DNA of 64,000 bases from Candidatus Zixiibacteriota bacterium. Lineage in GTDB: Bacteria > Zixibacteria > MSB-5A5 > GN15 > FEB-12. Shown in pieces: positions 48,486 to 56,354 of the stretch. The position numbers were made by a program, and so were the translations under genes. The stretch lies in assembly GCA_040756055.1 (NCBI GenBank), contig JBFLZR010000002.1, positions 646,411-710,410 of the forward strand, in the 5' to 3' direction. Within the stretch, counting starts at the first letter, position 1. The number at the start of each line of letters is the position of its first letter. Under the pieces are notes generated by a model. That model saw only the letters and a program-made list of their open reading frames with translations, was not told the DNA's origin and searched no databases.

Positions 48486-50723
48486 ATGAAAAGCGTAGGA
48501 ATTTGTCACTCAATGGAAAGCTATATGGCTTCCCTGATTGACCGAAAGAAGCCGGACGATGCAGTCAGGTACTACGAGTCGAATCGTAGTGAACTTGAGC
48601 GGATCGGCGGCTCTGACGCGTCACGGGTAATCCATATGGCTGCCAAAGCCTATGCTTCGCTTTCTCACTTTTCGGTTGCTCTTAAAACCGCCCGTACGGC
48701 GCAGCATGCAGCGGCTCAGGAGGGAGACAGCCTGCTGCTGGCCGAGATTTTCCTGACAATCGGCGGTATTTTGCGTGACATAAGTGAGTACAAAGAAGCT
48801 GAAAAGGCTTTTCGCGATGCTGAGTCCATATTCCGACGGAATGATTGTGCTGATGGACAGAGCCGGGCGCTCAACCAACTCGCCGGACTGTTCTACAGAC
48901 AATCGGACTACAGCAATTCTCTCGCCGTCCTGATCGACGCCATCGAGCTGGCCCGTCACCTCGACGATAAGAAGAAGCTGGCGTACATGATGGGTAACGT
49001 CGGCCGTATCTACACCTTTATCGGCGACTTCGAAGAGGCCGAGAGAAATATAAGACTTAATATCGAACTTTCCAGCGACCTGGGCGACACGCTCGAGGTT
49101 GCCCGTGCCTATATCCATCTCGGATATATCTATATTCAGAAAGCTCAGTACGAGAAGGCCGAGAAGGCGCTCGAAACCGCTTATCCGATGGTGATCGAGG
49201 CTCGGAGTGAACGTGACGAAACCATTTACCTGACCTACCTGGGCGAACTGCGCTACCGCATGGGTCAATACGAAGAATCCCGCGAGATTCTCAGGCAGGC
49301 CCGGGCGCTGGCCCGCAAGGTTGCCCCCAACGGCACGCTCGAAGGCCGGGTACTTCGTCATCTCGCCGAACTGGCGCTCCGTGTCGATGAACATACCCGC
49401 GCCGAACGTTACTCCGCGCTTGCGTGGGTCGTCATGGAAAAAGCCGACAACAATCTTGAACTGGGTGTCCTGTGCCGGATTAAAGCTGTTCTGGCCGAAA
49501 CAAAGAAGCGCAAAGCGGAAGCCCGTAAGCTCTACGCCAGAGCTATCGAACTTCTGAGCGATGCCAACGTTCGCTTCGAAAAGGCCGAGGCCCTGGTGGT
49601 AGCCGGCAAATCACACCTGTTTTCTCCCCGCCAGCGGATGACTTATCTGTTCAGGGCGGAAGAGATTTACGCGCGTATGAACCTGGCCCAGAAACAACGG
49701 GATACCGAAAGATTGATCGACGAAATCGACTCGCAGTTGCCACATCGCCCTCAAAACAGCCCCGACACTCCTTGTGTCGATATTCAGGATTACGACTATA
49801 TCACCAAGTGCCCGGAAATCCTGAGATTCAAGAGCCAATTACCGTTGATCATCAATTCGGATCTGCCGATTCTCCTGACGGGTGAGACCGGCGTGGGCAA
49901 GGATCATCTCGCCAGGTATTTCCAGAAGATCTCTCGTCCCGAAGGACCGTTCGTGGCTATCAACTGCGCTTCGCTTCCCGAAACGCTCTTGGAATCCGAA
50001 CTCTTCGGTTACCATCGCGGCGCCTTCACCGGAGCGGAGCAGAACAAGCAGGGTCTGTTCGTAGCGGCAAACGGCGGCGTGCTGTTCCTTGACGAGATCG
50101 GGGATATGCCGTTGACACTTCAGACCAAGCTGCTTGGCGTTCTTGAGAATCGACGGGTGATTCCGCTCGGTTCGACAACATCGGTGGACCTCGACATCAA
50201 GATCGTGGCCGCCACCAACAAGAAGCTTGAGCAGATGGTCGAGAAAGGACTGTTCCGCCGTGACCTTTACTACCGGCTCAGCGGAATCGCTTTCGAAATC
50301 CCGGCATTGCGGCATCGCAAAGAAGATATTCCCGTCCTTCTGAAGCTGTTCATGAAAAACTGCGGACTGTTAATGGAACACCAGTCGCCACCGGCCGAAC
50401 TGGCCCGCCAGTTCATTGAACACGACTGGCCCGGAAATACCCGCGAACTGTTCAATAAAGTCAAACGTCTGGGGGTAATGGCCCAGATGGTTGCGGAAGG
50501 GGACATGGTCGAACTGACCCGATCGATTTTTGAAACGACCGTGCCGGCGACCAACAATTCGCTTTTTGACAGGGTCGAAGAGTTTGAACGAAAAATCATT
50601 CTCGAGGCCCTGCTTGCGGCTCAAGGGAACAAATCGGAGGCGGCCCGTCTGTTGGGGATTCACGAGGCCACCGTCCGCACGAAACTGAAACGCTACGGCA
50701 TCAGCTTGGGAGGGGCTAATTAG
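48486..50723 (+). CDS. Sigma54-dependent transcriptional activator with N-terminal TPR domain
   Basis: The 745-residue regulator has roughly ten TPR-like repeats in its first 410 residues (ALKTARTAQHAAAQEG, AEKAFRDAESIFRR, LAYMMGNVGRIYTFIGDFEEAE, ARAYIHLGYIYIQKAQYEKAE), a sigma54-type AAA+ domain (Walker A GETGVGKDHL at about 466-473, ESELFGYHRGAFTGAE with the GAFTGA loop near 512, Walker B GGVLFLDEIGDMP) and a C-terminal Fis-type helix-turn-helix (NKSEAARLLGIHEATVRTKL). No receiver, GAF or PAS domain is present, so the TPRs are the likely sensory part. Its targets are -24/-12 promoters, none of which I could locate nearby. Confidence 0.93.
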   Translation: MKSVGICHSMESYMASLIDRKKPDDAVRYYESNRSELERIGGSDASRVIHMAAKAYASLSHFSVALKTARTAQHAAAQEGDSLLLAEIFLTIGGILRDISEYKEAEKAFRDAESIFRRNDCADGQSRALNQLAGLFYRQSDYSNSLAVLIDAIELARHLDDKKKLAYMMGNVGRIYTFIGDFEEAERNIRLNIELSSDLGDTLEVARAYIHLGYIYIQKAQYEKAEKALETAYPMVIEARSERDETIYLTYLGELRYRMGQYEESREILRQARALARKVAPNGTLEGRVLRHLAELALRVDEHTRAERYSALAWVVMEKADNNLELGVLCRIKAVLAETKKRKAEARKLYARAIELLSDANVRFEKAEALVVAGKSHLFSPRQRMTYLFRAEEIYARMNLAQKQRDTERLIDEIDSQLPHRPQNSPDTPCVDIQDYDYITKCPEILRFKSQLPLIINSDLPILLTGETGVGKDHLARYFQKISRPEGPFVAINCASLPETLLESELFGYHRGAFTGAEQNKQGLFVAANGGVLFLDEIGDMPLTLQTKLLGVLENRRVIPLGSTTSVDLDIKIVAATNKKLEQMVEKGLFRRDLYYRLSGIAFEIPALRHRKEDIPVLLKLFMKNCGLLMEHQSPPAELARQFIEHDWPGNTRELFNKVKRLGVMAQMVAEGDMVELTRSIFETTVPATNNSLFDRVEEFERKIILEALLAAQGNKSEAARLLGIHEATVRTKLKRYGISLGGAN

Positions 50724-51549: not shown

Positions 51550-52014
51550 CTAGTCACCAACCAAGAATTTCCTCAGCGGCAGGATCAAAGGCGGGAGCCC
51601 CATCCTTGAGATCATAGAGTTTACACACTCCCTTAGATACGGGAAAGTCTGTAGCGGCAGACTATGTTTGTTATATAACTCAAAGAAGCCGTCTGGTATG
51701 TCACCCTTACAGTCAAAAAGAACTGCATATTTTATTCGTGATGTAAACAGGCGGTTCCGCCCACACTTCGCCTTGAGATTGTAAGAAACCTCTATTGTCG
51801 CCACGTTTTCGGCAACACTAAGCACATTCGCCGACTCGTCGAATTTAAGGGAAGCCCTACCTGTTAGCTCCCTAGAATACAGAGTAGATTTGATCTCCTT
51901 CAAATAAATGTCTCGAAGATCAACGCACTTTAGAATCTCGCCGTATTGGGTCGGCGTAATGGTAACTTCTTCAGCGCTTCGCCTAAGCGCTGACTGCTTC
52001 TTTGCTTTCGGCAT
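51550..52014 (-). CDS. SecB-like chaperone of a toxin-antitoxin-chaperone locus
   Basis: A 154-residue protein of the SecB fold and length. The core LRDIYLKEIKSTL, RASLKFDESANVLSV and VATIEVSYNLKAKC follow the SecB strand order, and the C-terminal FPYLRECVNSMISRMGLPPLIL matches the SecB helix region (E. coli FPYARECITSMVSRG; M. tuberculosis Rv1957 YPYIREYVYDLTGRLALPPL). Start is set at the ATG at 52014 after AGGTGG; a GTG at 52029 is possible. It overlaps the HicB-type gene by 32 bases. In known TAC systems such chaperones fold and protect the antitoxin. Identity from pattern, not alignment. Confidence 0.75.
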   Translation of the reverse strand: MPKAKKQSALRRSAEEVTITPTQYGEILKCVDLRDIYLKEIKSTLYSRELTGRASLKFDESANVLSVAENVATIEVSYNLKAKCGRNRLFTSRIKYAVLFDCKGDIPDGFFELYNKHSLPLQTFPYLRECVNSMISRMGLPPLILPLRKFLVGD

Positions 52015-52525
52015 AGTTATCTTGACCACCTTGCTTGTTTATGTCAATAATCCAAGGCTGTTCGCACGTGCGCTCTCCGTAGCCCTTTACGGAGGCCGTA
52101 CTTGGGAGCACTGCTTCAACTGCTCTTCCGTAATCATCCCACCCGCAAAAGCGCTCCATTACAGCATTAACAAACGAATTAAGACTCTGGTTGTTTTTCT
52201 TGGCAAGTTTAATGAGCTGCAGATGCGTCGCGGGGGAAGTACGGAACACGAACCTCCCGCTTGGCATTGCCACATCTTCCCTTTCGGGTTCAGGTATTGG
52301 GATCTTGTTCTCAAAGTAGTAAGGAACAAGCTCTCGCCTGACTAGCTCAAAGCTCTCCAGAGCTTCCTTTTTAGTCGCACCTACTCCGTAGAACGCAACC
52401 TGATCCAGTTCACGACAGTATGCGCGATACATGACTTCGCCGTCGTCTTCCACCCTAGCAACTAACACATCGTAGTCGAGCTTAAGGTAGTATTCTAGAT
52501 CCTTATTTTGCGTTACCACAGGCAT
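51983..52525 (-). CDS. HicB-type antitoxin with C-terminal extension
   Basis: The 180-residue protein has an N-terminal HicB fold (YLKLDYDVLVARVEDDG, VAFYGVGATKKEALESFEL, NKIPIPEPE), then a ribbon-helix-helix/Arc-like DNA-binding region (SGRFVFRTSPATHLQLIKLAKK, NQSLNSFVNAVMERF). After about residue 125 comes a 55-residue extension with Trp in EQPWIIDINKQ, not part of HicB. In toxin-antitoxin-chaperone systems such tails make the antitoxin depend on its SecB-like chaperone. GGAGG abuts the ATG; the GTG two codons later at 52519 has better spacing. It overlaps both neighbours. Confidence 0.8.
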   Translation of the reverse strand: MPVVTQNKDLEYYLKLDYDVLVARVEDDGEVMYRAYCRELDQVAFYGVGATKKEALESFELVRRELVPYYFENKIPIPEPEREDVAMPSGRFVFRTSPATHLQLIKLAKKNNQSLNSFVNAVMERFCGWDDYGRAVEAVLPSTASVKGYGERTCEQPWIIDINKQGGQDNYAESKEAVSA

Positions 52526-52823
52526 CCTCCATTTCCATTAAGTCAATTATCTCCAACAATCGCGGCCTTAGATATTTCCTGTAATCAAATCGCGATATTA
52601 TTTCACGCTTCTTGTGACTTTTGTGTACTGTAAAAAGTCCATCGCGCCCCAGCCTTTTCAATATCTTATGTTGATATTTTATGCTGCTTCCGCCAGTCAG
52701 TTTAAGCCTCTCCACACCAAGTTCTTCGAACATAAACTTTTCAATTGGAGCAAGTTTCATTTCGGGCATGTTTATCGAGTCAAACTCCTTCAGCCTCGCC
52801 CTTAAGTTTTCAAACTTGCTCAA
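52503..52823 (-). CDS. HicA-like toxin candidate
   Basis: A 106-residue protein, first gene of the locus, with TTG start at 52823 and AAAGG upstream. The second half TGGSSIKYQHKIL, GLFTVHKSHKKREIIS, and YRKYLRPRLLEII follows the HicA pattern (G-G-S-H-x-K-x-x-H, a beta strand with His, then a helix pairing with the sheet). The catalytic His expected after GGS is Ser here. HicA is an mRNA interferase in known systems. The N-terminal 40 residues are an added helix. Assignment rests on weak sequence pattern plus gene position in front of a HicB-type gene. Confidence 0.6.
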   Translation of the reverse strand: MSKFENLRARLKEFDSINMPEMKLAPIEKFMFEELGVERLKLTGGSSIKYQHKILKRLGRDGLFTVHKSHKKREIISRFDYRKYLRPRLLEIIDLMEMEDACGNAK

Positions 52824-53125: not shown

Positions 53126-53857
53126 ATGCGCTCACTAAAGGATAAAGTCGTAGTCATAACGGGGGCTTCGCGGGGAATCGGCGAGGGTATCGCCCGCGTT
53201 TTTGCCGCCGAACACCCCAAGCTGGTTCTGTGCGGACGGGATAAAGAGCGCCTTCAAAAGGTCGCCAAATCCCTGCCCCTGCCAAGATCCCATGTCAGCA
53301 CTGTAATAGCCGATATCACCAGAGCCTCGGGCATGAAGAAAATAATCGATGCCGCCTACAAAAGACACGGCGTGATCGATGTGTTCATCAACAACGCCGG
53401 GGTCGGCGCGCGCAAAAACCTGCTGGATACCACCGAAGAAGACTACGACCTGACGATGGATACCAACCTCAAGGCGGTTTTCTACTCCTTCAAGATGCTT
53501 CTCCCCCGGATGCTCAAGCAGGATTTCGGACACATTATCAACATTTCGTCGGGCGCCGGCCGAATCGGGATGCCCGGCCTGGCGGTTTATTCGGCATCAA
53601 AAGCGGCCCTGAACGCTTTCAGCGAGGCTGTCGCCGGCGAAGTCCGCAACGATAACATAAAGATCTCCGTTCTCGCTCCCTCCTCCACCGATACGAGTTT
53701 CGGGTCGGGCAGATCAAGCAAGAAGAGCGCGCATCGCAGCGCCACAGTAAGATTGACTGTCGATGAAGTCGCCGAGGCGGTGTTGTTCCTCGCCAAACAG
53801 AATGAGAACGCCTTTACCTCGATGGCGGACATAAGACCCCTTATTACTCGCAAATAG
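53126..53857 (+). CDS. Short-chain dehydrogenase/reductase
   Basis: A 243-residue SDR oxidoreductase. The cofactor site is VVITGASRGIGEG, followed by NNAGVG, the Ser of INISSGAGRIG and the YSASK catalytic pair. The Rossmann fold is complete; substrate preference is unknown. The frame back to 53060 adds 22 residues and is not supported by a ribosome site; the ATG at 53126 gives the usual length. No operon partner is evident. Several SDRs of this length act on fatty acyl or sugar substrates, but no assignment is possible here. Confidence 0.9.
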   Translation: MRSLKDKVVVITGASRGIGEGIARVFAAEHPKLVLCGRDKERLQKVAKSLPLPRSHVSTVIADITRASGMKKIIDAAYKRHGVIDVFINNAGVGARKNLLDTTEEDYDLTMDTNLKAVFYSFKMLLPRMLKQDFGHIINISSGAGRIGMPGLAVYSASKAALNAFSEAVAGEVRNDNIKISVLAPSSTDTSFGSGRSSKKSAHRSATVRLTVDEVAEAVLFLAKQNENAFTSMADIRPLITRK

Positions 53858-54079
53858 ACACATCCGCGTGTCCTCTCCCGGTAACATGGAAAACATTTCT
53901 CTTGATTCCGGTTCAGCGCGCGTGCATTTTTATATTAGATACATAAATCTTCGTTTGTCTGCGATCATCAAACCTCACCACTGATATCGCGGTCCAACAC
54001 GAGTCGGCATCGAACCTGCCAACCTCAATCACCTCACATCCTGGCGGGAGGGAATTCATACAAACGCGGAGGGTTGTTC

Positions 54080-54670
54080 ATGTTACGTGGACTTAAGTTA
54101 GTCATCGTGTCCGTCACAGTCATAGCAATTACGATTGGTCTCGCCTACGTGCTGGGTGGCGAGGCCGGCCAGTATATTGCACAATATCGCGCGGAACGCG
54201 AGTATCTTCAGCAACGCGACAAGGACAGTGAACAGCAACTTGCCAACGCCAACCGCACTATCATCGGCGAAAAACTCCCGGAAGACGAATTCAAAGATGT
54301 AAGCGGTAATACCGTTCGACTGTCAGAGCTTCTCAGACGGAAGACGGTCGTATCGTTTATGTCTTCAAATTGTCAGGGATGCATGACCCAAGCCGAGCAG
54401 ATCGCCTCACTTGCCCGCGACAGCGTTGATTTCGCCGGCTTTATAGTGATATCGCTCAGCGACGTTGATGATCTGATCTCGTTTAAACGGGAATACGGGC
54501 TTAAGTGTCCCGTTCTGCACGAGAACGGTGAGTACGTAATGAGATTTTTCAACAACTATCTGACTCCGACCAGCCTGATAGTCAACGGAGATGGTGTTGT
54601 TGAGAAACTTATCGCCGGACATCTCACCGATAGCGAGATCGAAGATGTAATGGATTGCAATCGCGATTAA
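54080..54670 (+). CDS. Membrane-anchored thioredoxin-fold protein (TlpA/AhpC-like)
   Basis: The 196-residue product starts at ATG 54080 after GGAGGG and has an N-terminal anchor (LVIVSVTVIAITIGLAYVLGG), a coiled linker (QYRAEREYLQQRDKDSEQQL) and a thioredoxin-like domain: GEKLPEDEFKDVSGNTVRLSEL, SFMSSNCQGCMTQAEQI with the CQGC redox pair, and LTPTSLIVNGDG in place of the cis-Pro loop. It should sit in the periplasm as a thiol-disulfide oxidoreductase. Two genes for small Cys-rich exported peptides follow directly, so a role in their oxidation is plausible. Confidence 0.85.
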   Translation: MLRGLKLVIVSVTVIAITIGLAYVLGGEAGQYIAQYRAEREYLQQRDKDSEQQLANANRTIIGEKLPEDEFKDVSGNTVRLSELLRRKTVVSFMSSNCQGCMTQAEQIASLARDSVDFAGFIVISLSDVDDLISFKREYGLKCPVLHENGEYVMRFFNNYLTPTSLIVNGDGVVEKLIAGHLTDSEIEDVMDCNRD

Positions 54671-54744
54671 TGGTAAGAACTGACTCTGACATCGGAAGTC
54701 TGGAGTTAAACACACATTCAAGACCAACGAAGGGAGGTGATTTT

Positions 54745-54981
54745 ATGGCGCGTAAACTTTCTTTGGTGCTTCCAGCCCTCTTTGTGCTGGTATTCGCTTT
54801 CTGCCTTGTGGTGCAGATGCATTCACCGGCCGAGGCCGAGCCGTTGTGCTGTTATGTGGTCAACGTCTGCGACGGTATTGTGTATCAGGGCTGTTGCCCA
54901 AGGATAGACAAAGTCTGTCGTTGCGATGTTGTTGTGGACTACTGTCCGCCAGGCCCGCCGCTGGAGTGCGATATTGACTAG
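54745..54981 (+). CDS. Small Cys-rich exported peptide A
   Basis: A 78-residue precursor with a strong AAGGGAGGTGA ribosome site and signal peptide (LVLPALFVLVFAFCLVV, then MHSPAEAEP). The mature peptide of about 46 residues contains nine Cys (LCCYVVNVCDG, GCCPRIDKVCRC, YCPP, LECD). Eight of these positions are shared with peptide B, giving CC...C..G...CPRID..C.C...YC.PP...EC. Such density suggests a disulfide-stabilised secreted peptide. No known family recognised. Starts 74 bases after the thioredoxin-like gene. Confidence 0.8.
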   Translation: MARKLSLVLPALFVLVFAFCLVVQMHSPAEAEPLCCYVVNVCDGIVYQGCCPRIDKVCRCDVVVDYCPPGPPLECDID

Positions 54982-55151
54982 CAAGGTCTCTCATTCACAC
55001 ATCCCGCCGGACCAAGAGCCTCAACTTGGCGAGACACATTCCAACCAGCGCCGGGAATCAAAGTAATCGACTGAGCTCCACCCAGAACTTGGTTGGCTAA
55101 AGACCCGGTGACTGCCTGCTGACACGAACGAAAATGAAAGGAGATGTTAAT

Positions 55152-55388
55152 ATGTTGCGAAAACTGTCTGTCCTGCTGCCCGCATTATTCGTGCTTGTTT
55201 TCACGTTTTGCCTTATCGTCTCAATGAATGCCCCAGTTGCGGCCGTTCCGAAGGAATGCTGCACTAAAGTTAACAATTGCGACGGAGTACTCTGGTGGGG
55301 CGAGTGTCCCCGGATCGACGGTCTCTGTGACTGCAACCTCGTGGTTAGTTATTGTCTCCCTCCGCCAAGAGAATGTACTCCAGACTGA
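55152..55388 (+). CDS. Small Cys-rich exported peptide B
   Basis: A 78-residue paralogue of peptide A, same length, with start ATG 55152 after AAAGGAGATG. The signal peptide (LLPALFVLVFTFCLIVSMNAPVAA split around the cleavage region) is nearly identical; the mature part has eight Cys (ECCTKVNNCDG, GECPRIDGLCDC, YCLPP, RECT). The pair is a local duplication with conserved cysteines and changing residues between them, as expected for a secreted functional peptide. Ends at a strong terminator. Confidence 0.8.
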   Translation: MLRKLSVLLPALFVLVFTFCLIVSMNAPVAAVPKECCTKVNNCDGVLWWGECPRIDGLCDCNLVVSYCLPPPRECTPD

Positions 55389-55447
55389 TCCTATCGGCTG
55401 ATCAGTAATCAAACGCTGCAGCCCCCAGACAACGGTTATGAGTCAGA

Positions 55448-55475
55448 CAGGCCCCTTTCAGGGGCCTGATTTTTT
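55448..55475. terminator. Terminator after the Cys-rich peptide genes
   Basis: CAGGCCCCT (55448-55456) and AGGGGCCTG (55460-55468) form a 9-bp stem followed by ATTTTTT. It lies between convergent genes and may also act on the minus strand. Confidence 0.85.
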
Positions 55476-55478
55476 GGA

Positions 55479-56354
55479 TCACAGTTTTTCAAGAAATTTG
55501 AGAACTACCGATGACGAATTGTCGGCGGCTACCTTGAAAAACTCCTCGATCTCCACCGCAGCGGTCGCGGAACCGGAACCTCCGGCAAGGTCCGAGGCTG
55601 ACCTGAAGATTATATACGGAACCTCATTCACGGCGCACACCTGAGCTACCGCCGCCGACTCCATATCGGTTACCACCGCGGAAAAGTGGTTACTCAGCCA
55701 AAGACGTTTCTCCCGGCTATCCACAAACACGTTGCCGGTCACGCCAACCCCACCAACCAACAGCCGCGGCTTGCGGTCGCCAATTGAGGCTACCGGGAGT
55801 TCTTCATGACTCAACTTCAACGCCGACGCCAGCATGACACTATCCACCTCGAATCTGTCAATCCGCCTTACACTGTCTTCGCCCGGCATCCAGACCGGCA
55901 GACCCCGCGGCTCGAATCCGGTCGGGCCGATATACCCGTAATCATGCTGCACCCACTCTCCGCAGACTGTAATGTCCCCAATATGCACCGAACTGTCTAT
56001 CGCTCCCGCAATACCGGTCAGGACCACTGCCTTTGGCCGATAATAGTCCAGCATCTTCTGGGTCGTCATAGCGGCATTGGTCATGCCGATACCAAGCTCT
56101 GCCAGGACTATGTTCTTGCCACCAACGGTTCCAACCGACACGGCGCGATTCAAAAGCGTTTCGGTAGTATCGACCGACATCTGGTTCCTTATCAGTTCCC
56201 CCTCATAATTGAAGGCATATAGCACCAGAATCGGCTGCGACTGAGGGTCCATCTGCTTGCGACATGAGACCGTAACAGCCAGCAAACAGCACAGTACTGA
56301 CACCAACAGCAGGCGAGTCACCGCGACCGCGTATGTCTTTCTAAGGCGATGCAT
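55479..56354 (-). CDS. Exported MTAN/nucleosidase-like phosphorylase-family protein
   Basis: A 291-residue PNP-UDP family protein: LGIGMTNAAMTTQKML, VVLTGIAGAIDSSVHIGDITV, VTDMESAAVAQVC and IIFRSASDLAGG with the catalytic Asp. These match 5'-methylthioadenosine/S-adenosylhomocysteine nucleosidases, which are cytoplasmic. Here an N-terminal hydrophobic segment (LLLVSVLCCLLAVTVSC) directs it across the membrane, possibly as a lipoprotein at the Cys, so an extracytoplasmic nucleosidase is inferred. GGAGG precedes the ATG. It sits 26 bases after the transglutaminase gene. Confidence 0.85.
   Translation of the reverse strand: MHRLRKTYAVAVTRLLLVSVLCCLLAVTVSCRKQMDPQSQPILVLYAFNYEGELIRNQMSVDTTETLLNRAVSVGTVGGKNIVLAELGIGMTNAAMTTQKMLDYYRPKAVVLTGIAGAIDSSVHIGDITVCGEWVQHDYGYIGPTGFEPRGLPVWMPGEDSVRRIDRFEVDSVMLASALKLSHEELPVASIGDRKPRLLVGGVGVTGNVFVDSREKRLWLSNHFSAVVTDMESAAVAQVCAVNEVPYIIFRSASDLAGGSGSATAAVEIEEFFKVAADNSSSVVLKFLEKL

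Follow-up and report, generated by a model that had tools for sequence, protein, structure and literature searches.

The question raised by this locus is why a gene for a membrane-anchored thioredoxin-like protein should stand directly before two genes for small, exported, cysteine-rich peptides. The window, a stretch of 64,000 nucleotides from a Candidatus Zixiibacteriota assembly (3.3 Mb in 12 contigs), carries this cassette on its forward strand. The first gene (54080..54670, +) starts at the ATG at 54080, with GGAGGG upstream, and encodes a TlpA/ResA-type protein of 196 aa (hereafter Trx). It matches AhpC-TSA with an E-value of 3.1e-13, displays an N-terminal hydrophobic helix in both sequence and model, and bears a CQGC active site at residues 98-101 (codons 54371..54382, +), the first cysteine of which is invariant in an alignment of 15 Trx rows. 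The preliminary description of the gene before the peptides as a membrane-anchored, thioredoxin-like CQGC protein was thus upheld. Peptide A (54745..54981, +) and peptide B (55152..55388, +) follow, each a 78 aa precursor preceded by a Shine-Dalgarno-like purine run. Their predicted mature parts of 47 aa contain nine and eight cysteines respectively; eight mature cysteine positions are common to both, as had been claimed for the two 78-residue precursors, along with one in the signal, and the ninth mature cysteine is found in A only. The signal peptides had been called nearly identical, but they are merely similar: with the predicted cleavage site, 21 of 31 signal residues (68%) are identical as against 26 of 46 mature residues (57%). 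The single terminator reported after the peptides corresponds to a hairpin followed by a T run (55448..55468, +) that separates the cassette from a convergent gene; it is indeed the only one found, but because shuffles of the region yield 2.0 such sites on average, the terminator scan on its own constitutes no evidence. A scan of 53800-55600 revealed no sigma-70-like promoter.

Elsewhere in the window, at 48486-50723 (+), we noted a TPR protein with a fused sigma-54 activator domain and a Fis-type helix-turn-helix. At 51550-52823 (-), HicB (PF05534) and SecB-like (PF02556) genes adjoin an ORF of 106 aa that appears HicA-like by eye and has no Pfam match; this is possibly a toxin-antitoxin-chaperone cluster.

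The structural model of the window Trx (mean pLDDT 85.2) has ResA as its best match among solved folds, and the nearest solved sequences and folds include ResA, StoA, CcmG, TlpA and Etrx2. It resembles ResA, StoA, CcmG and TlpA in fold, sequence, membrane anchor and the CxxC motif, and differs from them in being encoded together with cysteine-rich peptides. It also misses the curated NCBIfam thresholds of ResA, StoA and DsbE, scoring 48.4 bits against the 170 bits required for ResA (NF002854).

Relatives of the window Trx in Candidatus Zixiibacteriota often precede one to eight small exported cysteine-rich ORFs. To quantify this we used 60 fetched loci, including that of the window, which were taken mostly in the rank order of Trx-profile matches; short fragments were passed over, as were several full rows towards the bottom of the ranking, and one locus (L125, genome G055) was taken out of rank order with its peptide already known. 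A cysteine-rich ORF (at least 6 Cys) lies within 300 bp downstream of 40 of the 57 Trx genes with downstream room. Among the 362 remaining ORFs of these loci that reach 150 aa the figure is 3, and two of those three control hits (L104 and L124) are themselves cassette-like peptides. The Fisher value for this contrast, 1e-38, ignores shared descent. Leaving out the window and L125 gives 38/55. Under the same strict rule the association is seen in 26/30 core Trx genes, namely the closest relatives of the window protein, and in 14/27 of the others. A looser rule (an exported ORF within 1.8 kb downstream that encodes four or more Cys) recovers 44 of the 60 loci, among them a likely false positive (L109) and a broken-looking case (L094), and 26/32 of the core Trx loci (L066-L097, at least 111 bits). 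Among the 16 loci without a downstream peptide, three (L087, L089, L099) hit a contig end, one (L082) shows a peptide-profile match that overlaps the Trx ORF at its end, two (L111, L116) have a peptide just upstream of the Trx, and in five (L106, L115, L118, L120, L121) the Trx bears an ATWC-x-PC motif; the remaining ones are L070, L081, L096, L098 and L117. A further locus beyond the 60, L172, combines eight peptides with a weak Trx match (22 bits).

Peptide B alone retrieved relatives in 3 of 61 genomes, namely its own and two of the same genus, and the window Trx in 30 of 61. A profile of the 15 Trx relatives matched 101 of 132 genomes of the phylum at E<=0.001, and many of these matches are probably ordinary thioredoxins. 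A scan of named genomes in which six Trx relatives from outside the window's genome served as queries gave 17 pattern stretches, four of which encode a relative, all in Candidatus Zixiibacteriota. Viral contigs were considered as a source of relatives of peptide B and set aside after 22 pattern stretches yielded no confirmed relative; plasmids, searched with one peptide from L084, gave only three weak matches (E 2 to 8).

A peptide profile built from 22 sequences and searched against 132 genomes produced 56 matches in 29 of them. By hand comparison, 37 of these have a Trx match close by, which in some cases is weak or fragmentary. The other 19 have no adjacent Trx: G002 contributes nine of them, G040 five, G001 two, and G035, G049 and G043 one apiece. 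Their loci showed no Trx-like ORF, that of G035 being situated at a contig start. The preliminary description had held that peptides occurring widely without the CxxC gene would speak against the cassette. These 19 matches lean that way, but 18 of them, the exception being G043, occur in genomes with a core Trx, that is a close relative of the window protein, elsewhere. Genome-wide, an A4-type peptide is held by 20 of the 24 genomes with a core Trx as against 9 of the 108 others, a contrast that is partly circular, as most peptides in the A4 profile had been taken from beside a Trx. In G002, which belongs to the genus of the window, one locus (L081) has a short-chain dehydrogenase 68% identical to that of the window together with a Trx (37%), and at another (L168) two cysteine-rich peptides are accompanied by genes for PNP (61%), a transglutaminase-like protein (74%) and an acylase (72% over a segment of 120 residues). 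Because these two loci hold the genes of the window locus about 1.6 Mb apart, the locus is present in two places in G002, both of them conserved. The L168 peptides match those of the window over the signal region only (A over 33 residues, E=2.6e-5; B not significantly).

If their cysteines pair, such peptides are expected to have even cysteine counts, and the predicted mature parts of 97 out of 103 peptides do so. This set includes both window peptides, of which A has an odd count. By cluster, 55 of 56 mature-part clusters are mostly even, and an earlier count under a cruder rule gave 57/61. We dropped an antisense-looking ORF (L109_374), a broken-looking one (L094_77) and five ORFs of L170 before the cysteine count, and at loci L006, L007 and L167-L186 solely ORFs with at least 6 Cys entered it. 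The five L170 ORFs were removed by a filter aimed at dockerin-like proteins; among them are a peptide with 8 Cys that looks genuine and a dockerin-like protein with 7. That locus (L170:2134-4660) has four small, exported, cysteine-containing proteins, dockerin-like by eye, flanking a cysteine-rich peptide. The 103 mature peptides have a median length of 51, contain 4-12 Cys amounting to 14.4% of their residues, and carry a CC pair in 86 cases. The even counts point to a disulfide-bonded, secreted set of peptides that has not yet been described.

Metal ligands could also account for even counts. The peptides might bind copper or zinc through their cysteines, with the Trx keeping the thiols reduced in the manner of TlpA acting on Sco and cytochrome oxidase subunit II, and the fold matches of the Trx do include the mixed-disulfide complexes of TlpA with ScoI and with subunit II. 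However, histidine makes up just 2.3% of the mature residues, tyrosine (6.5%) and tryptophan (3.4%) are common, and the cysteine patterns differ widely among the peptides, so that we regard a role in metal handling as improbable.

The peptides are strongly divergent overall, 61 precursors falling into 13 clusters at E<1e-5 even with their signals included. With cleavage sites guessed, identity is higher in the signal than in the mature part for some pairs (88% vs 64% in L084/L086; 88% vs 47% in L068/L077), and the trend is reversed in others (50% vs 68% in L067/L073; 93% vs 100% in L108_37/L110_32). The preliminary description knew of no family with their pattern, and this held for the members scanned: no Pfam family scored above cut-off for peptides A and B, for 10 individual peptides or for the 22 peptides of the A4 set, nor did any NCBIfam family for eight peptides (the two of the window and six from relatives). 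The nearest candidate was DUF6520 (PF20130), which one cassette peptide matched with E=9e-4 and three of 22 at E<=1. Its gathering score of 25.4 bits was reached neither by the best cassette peptide (20 bits) nor by the best genome match (21.8 bits), and none of the 132 genomes passed the cut-off in a search where 14 control genomes were silent too, leaving it with no positive control. NVEALA (PF14055) likewise comprises small exported proteins, and it had no match at its gathering threshold of 27 bits in the window's own genome, the control matching in 1 of 14 genomes. A PDB sequence search with peptide B gave no match, and an AlphaFold model of this peptide alone (mean pLDDT 64.5) was set aside. 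Open-licence literature searches for NVEALA, DUF6520 or Zixibacteria (in this spelling) with cysteine-rich, and for the Trx-peptide pair, found nothing. Zixibacteria with thioredoxin led to a paper on mercury genes, and Zixibacteria with bacteriocin led to several papers, one of which, in the passages covered, does not describe these peptides (PMC7472256).

Beyond the pair, a recurrent neighbor is a family of large exported proteins, mostly of about 800-900 aa where complete, present in 25 of the 60 loci and, by hand count, directly downstream of or divergent from the cassette in 24 (for example L068, L072 and L090). No Pfam family scores above cut-off for it, and some members show a weak likeness to type IX sorting tails. 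The peptides could accordingly be disulfide-bonded subunits or partners of these proteins at the cell surface, a proposal that gains from the presence of the same family beside two Trx-less peptides (L175, L178). Against this, the occurrence of the family is not tied to the cassette, each of the 61 genomes yielding 3 to at least 16 matches, and no such protein adjoins the window cassette; we therefore hold this role to be unlikely. The presence of at least three copies in every one of the 61 genomes also led us to set the large protein aside as a third core component. Other neighbor families are scattered in distance and strand, one occurring in 17/60 loci and sigma-54-type regulators in 11/60.

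The active site of the Trx is not uniformly conserved across the 60 proteins: five have CxxS, L097 has neither cysteine and L098 has lost the first. A peptide is nevertheless present beside four CxxS forms (L068, L071, L077, L095) and the Cys-less L097, and is absent at L098. CxxS proteins still paired with peptides would suit isomerase or binding roles. As for redox partners, DsbD_TM was detected in 39 of 41 genomes, DsbB in none and VKOR in two, the respective controls matching in 10, 6 and 3 of 14 control genomes; MauE, found in 37 of 41, was not linked to the cassette. These counts appear to suit a reduced, disulfide-correcting Trx better than an oxidation route like that of DsbA/DsbB.

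ResA-type thioredoxins are reductases, and the prevalence of DsbD/CcdA-type proteins with no DsbB could also be counted for self-protection, whereby the peptides are antagonistic toxins and the Trx, serving as an immunity protein, shields the producer by reducing and so disarming them. Clustering of the neighbors in the 60 loci found no other conserved immunity gene of at least 100 aa beside the peptides, the ORF length at which it was run, so that smaller immunity genes would escape it. But the same clustering found no conserved transporter next to the peptides, an ABC ATPase family occurring in 4/60 loci at 2-7 kb, and the peptides are retained beside CxxS and Cys-less Trx proteins. Moreover, typical bacteriocins are cationic, whereas 78 of the 103 peptides carry a net negative charge, 16 are neutral and 9 are positive. 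We consider an immunity function of this kind a rather remote prospect.

Repeatedly in the phylum, then, a membrane-anchored Trx of the ResA/TlpA fold is encoded beside one or more Sec-type precursors with a short cysteine-rich mature part and mostly even cysteine counts. The preliminary reading of the locus as a cassette for making disulfide-rich secreted peptides is supported by the recurrence of the pair in many genomes and by cysteine counts that favor pairing. The explanation to which we lean, by a modest preference, is that of Sec-exported, disulfide-rich peptides served by a dedicated, membrane-tethered Trx acting as disulfide corrector, by which their disulfides may be made or corrected. 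Outside the cytoplasm, the peptides would adopt the fold of disulfide-bonded miniproteins. The tethered Trx is probably maintained in its reduced state by the DsbD/CcdA-type protein, which nearly all of the searched genomes possess, and it would break and re-form wrong disulfides as the peptides emerge, in an isomerase or proofreading role. The folded peptides might then act outside the inner membrane. A comparable pairing of a small disulfide peptide with a thiol-disulfide oxidoreductase is encoded in the pediocin PA-1 system, where PedC is reported to raise potency and its authors speculate that it forms the correct disulfides (PMC4919988). In operons of the pediocin kind, genes for immunity and for an ABC transporter are described (PMC5465099). 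The cassettes differ in having no conserved adjacent ABC transporter in the 60 loci and in their peptides, which have Sec-type signals, 4-12 Cys and a mostly acidic character.

The mature parts vary strongly around the kept cysteines, as might be expected by analogy with peptides that track changing targets. We tentatively raise a broader proposal, held with rather more doubt than confidence, that the phylum possesses a diversifying repertoire of disulfide-rich secreted miniproteins, each set with its dedicated tethered Trx, which would be a counterpart of cone-snail peptides in design and not in descent. If this were true, secreted disulfide miniproteins that come with their own folding partner would form a large family in a poorly known phylum. 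They would be a source of new peptide scaffolds, and would let the handling of many-disulfide peptides be studied in a natural setting, in bacteria without detectable DsbB.
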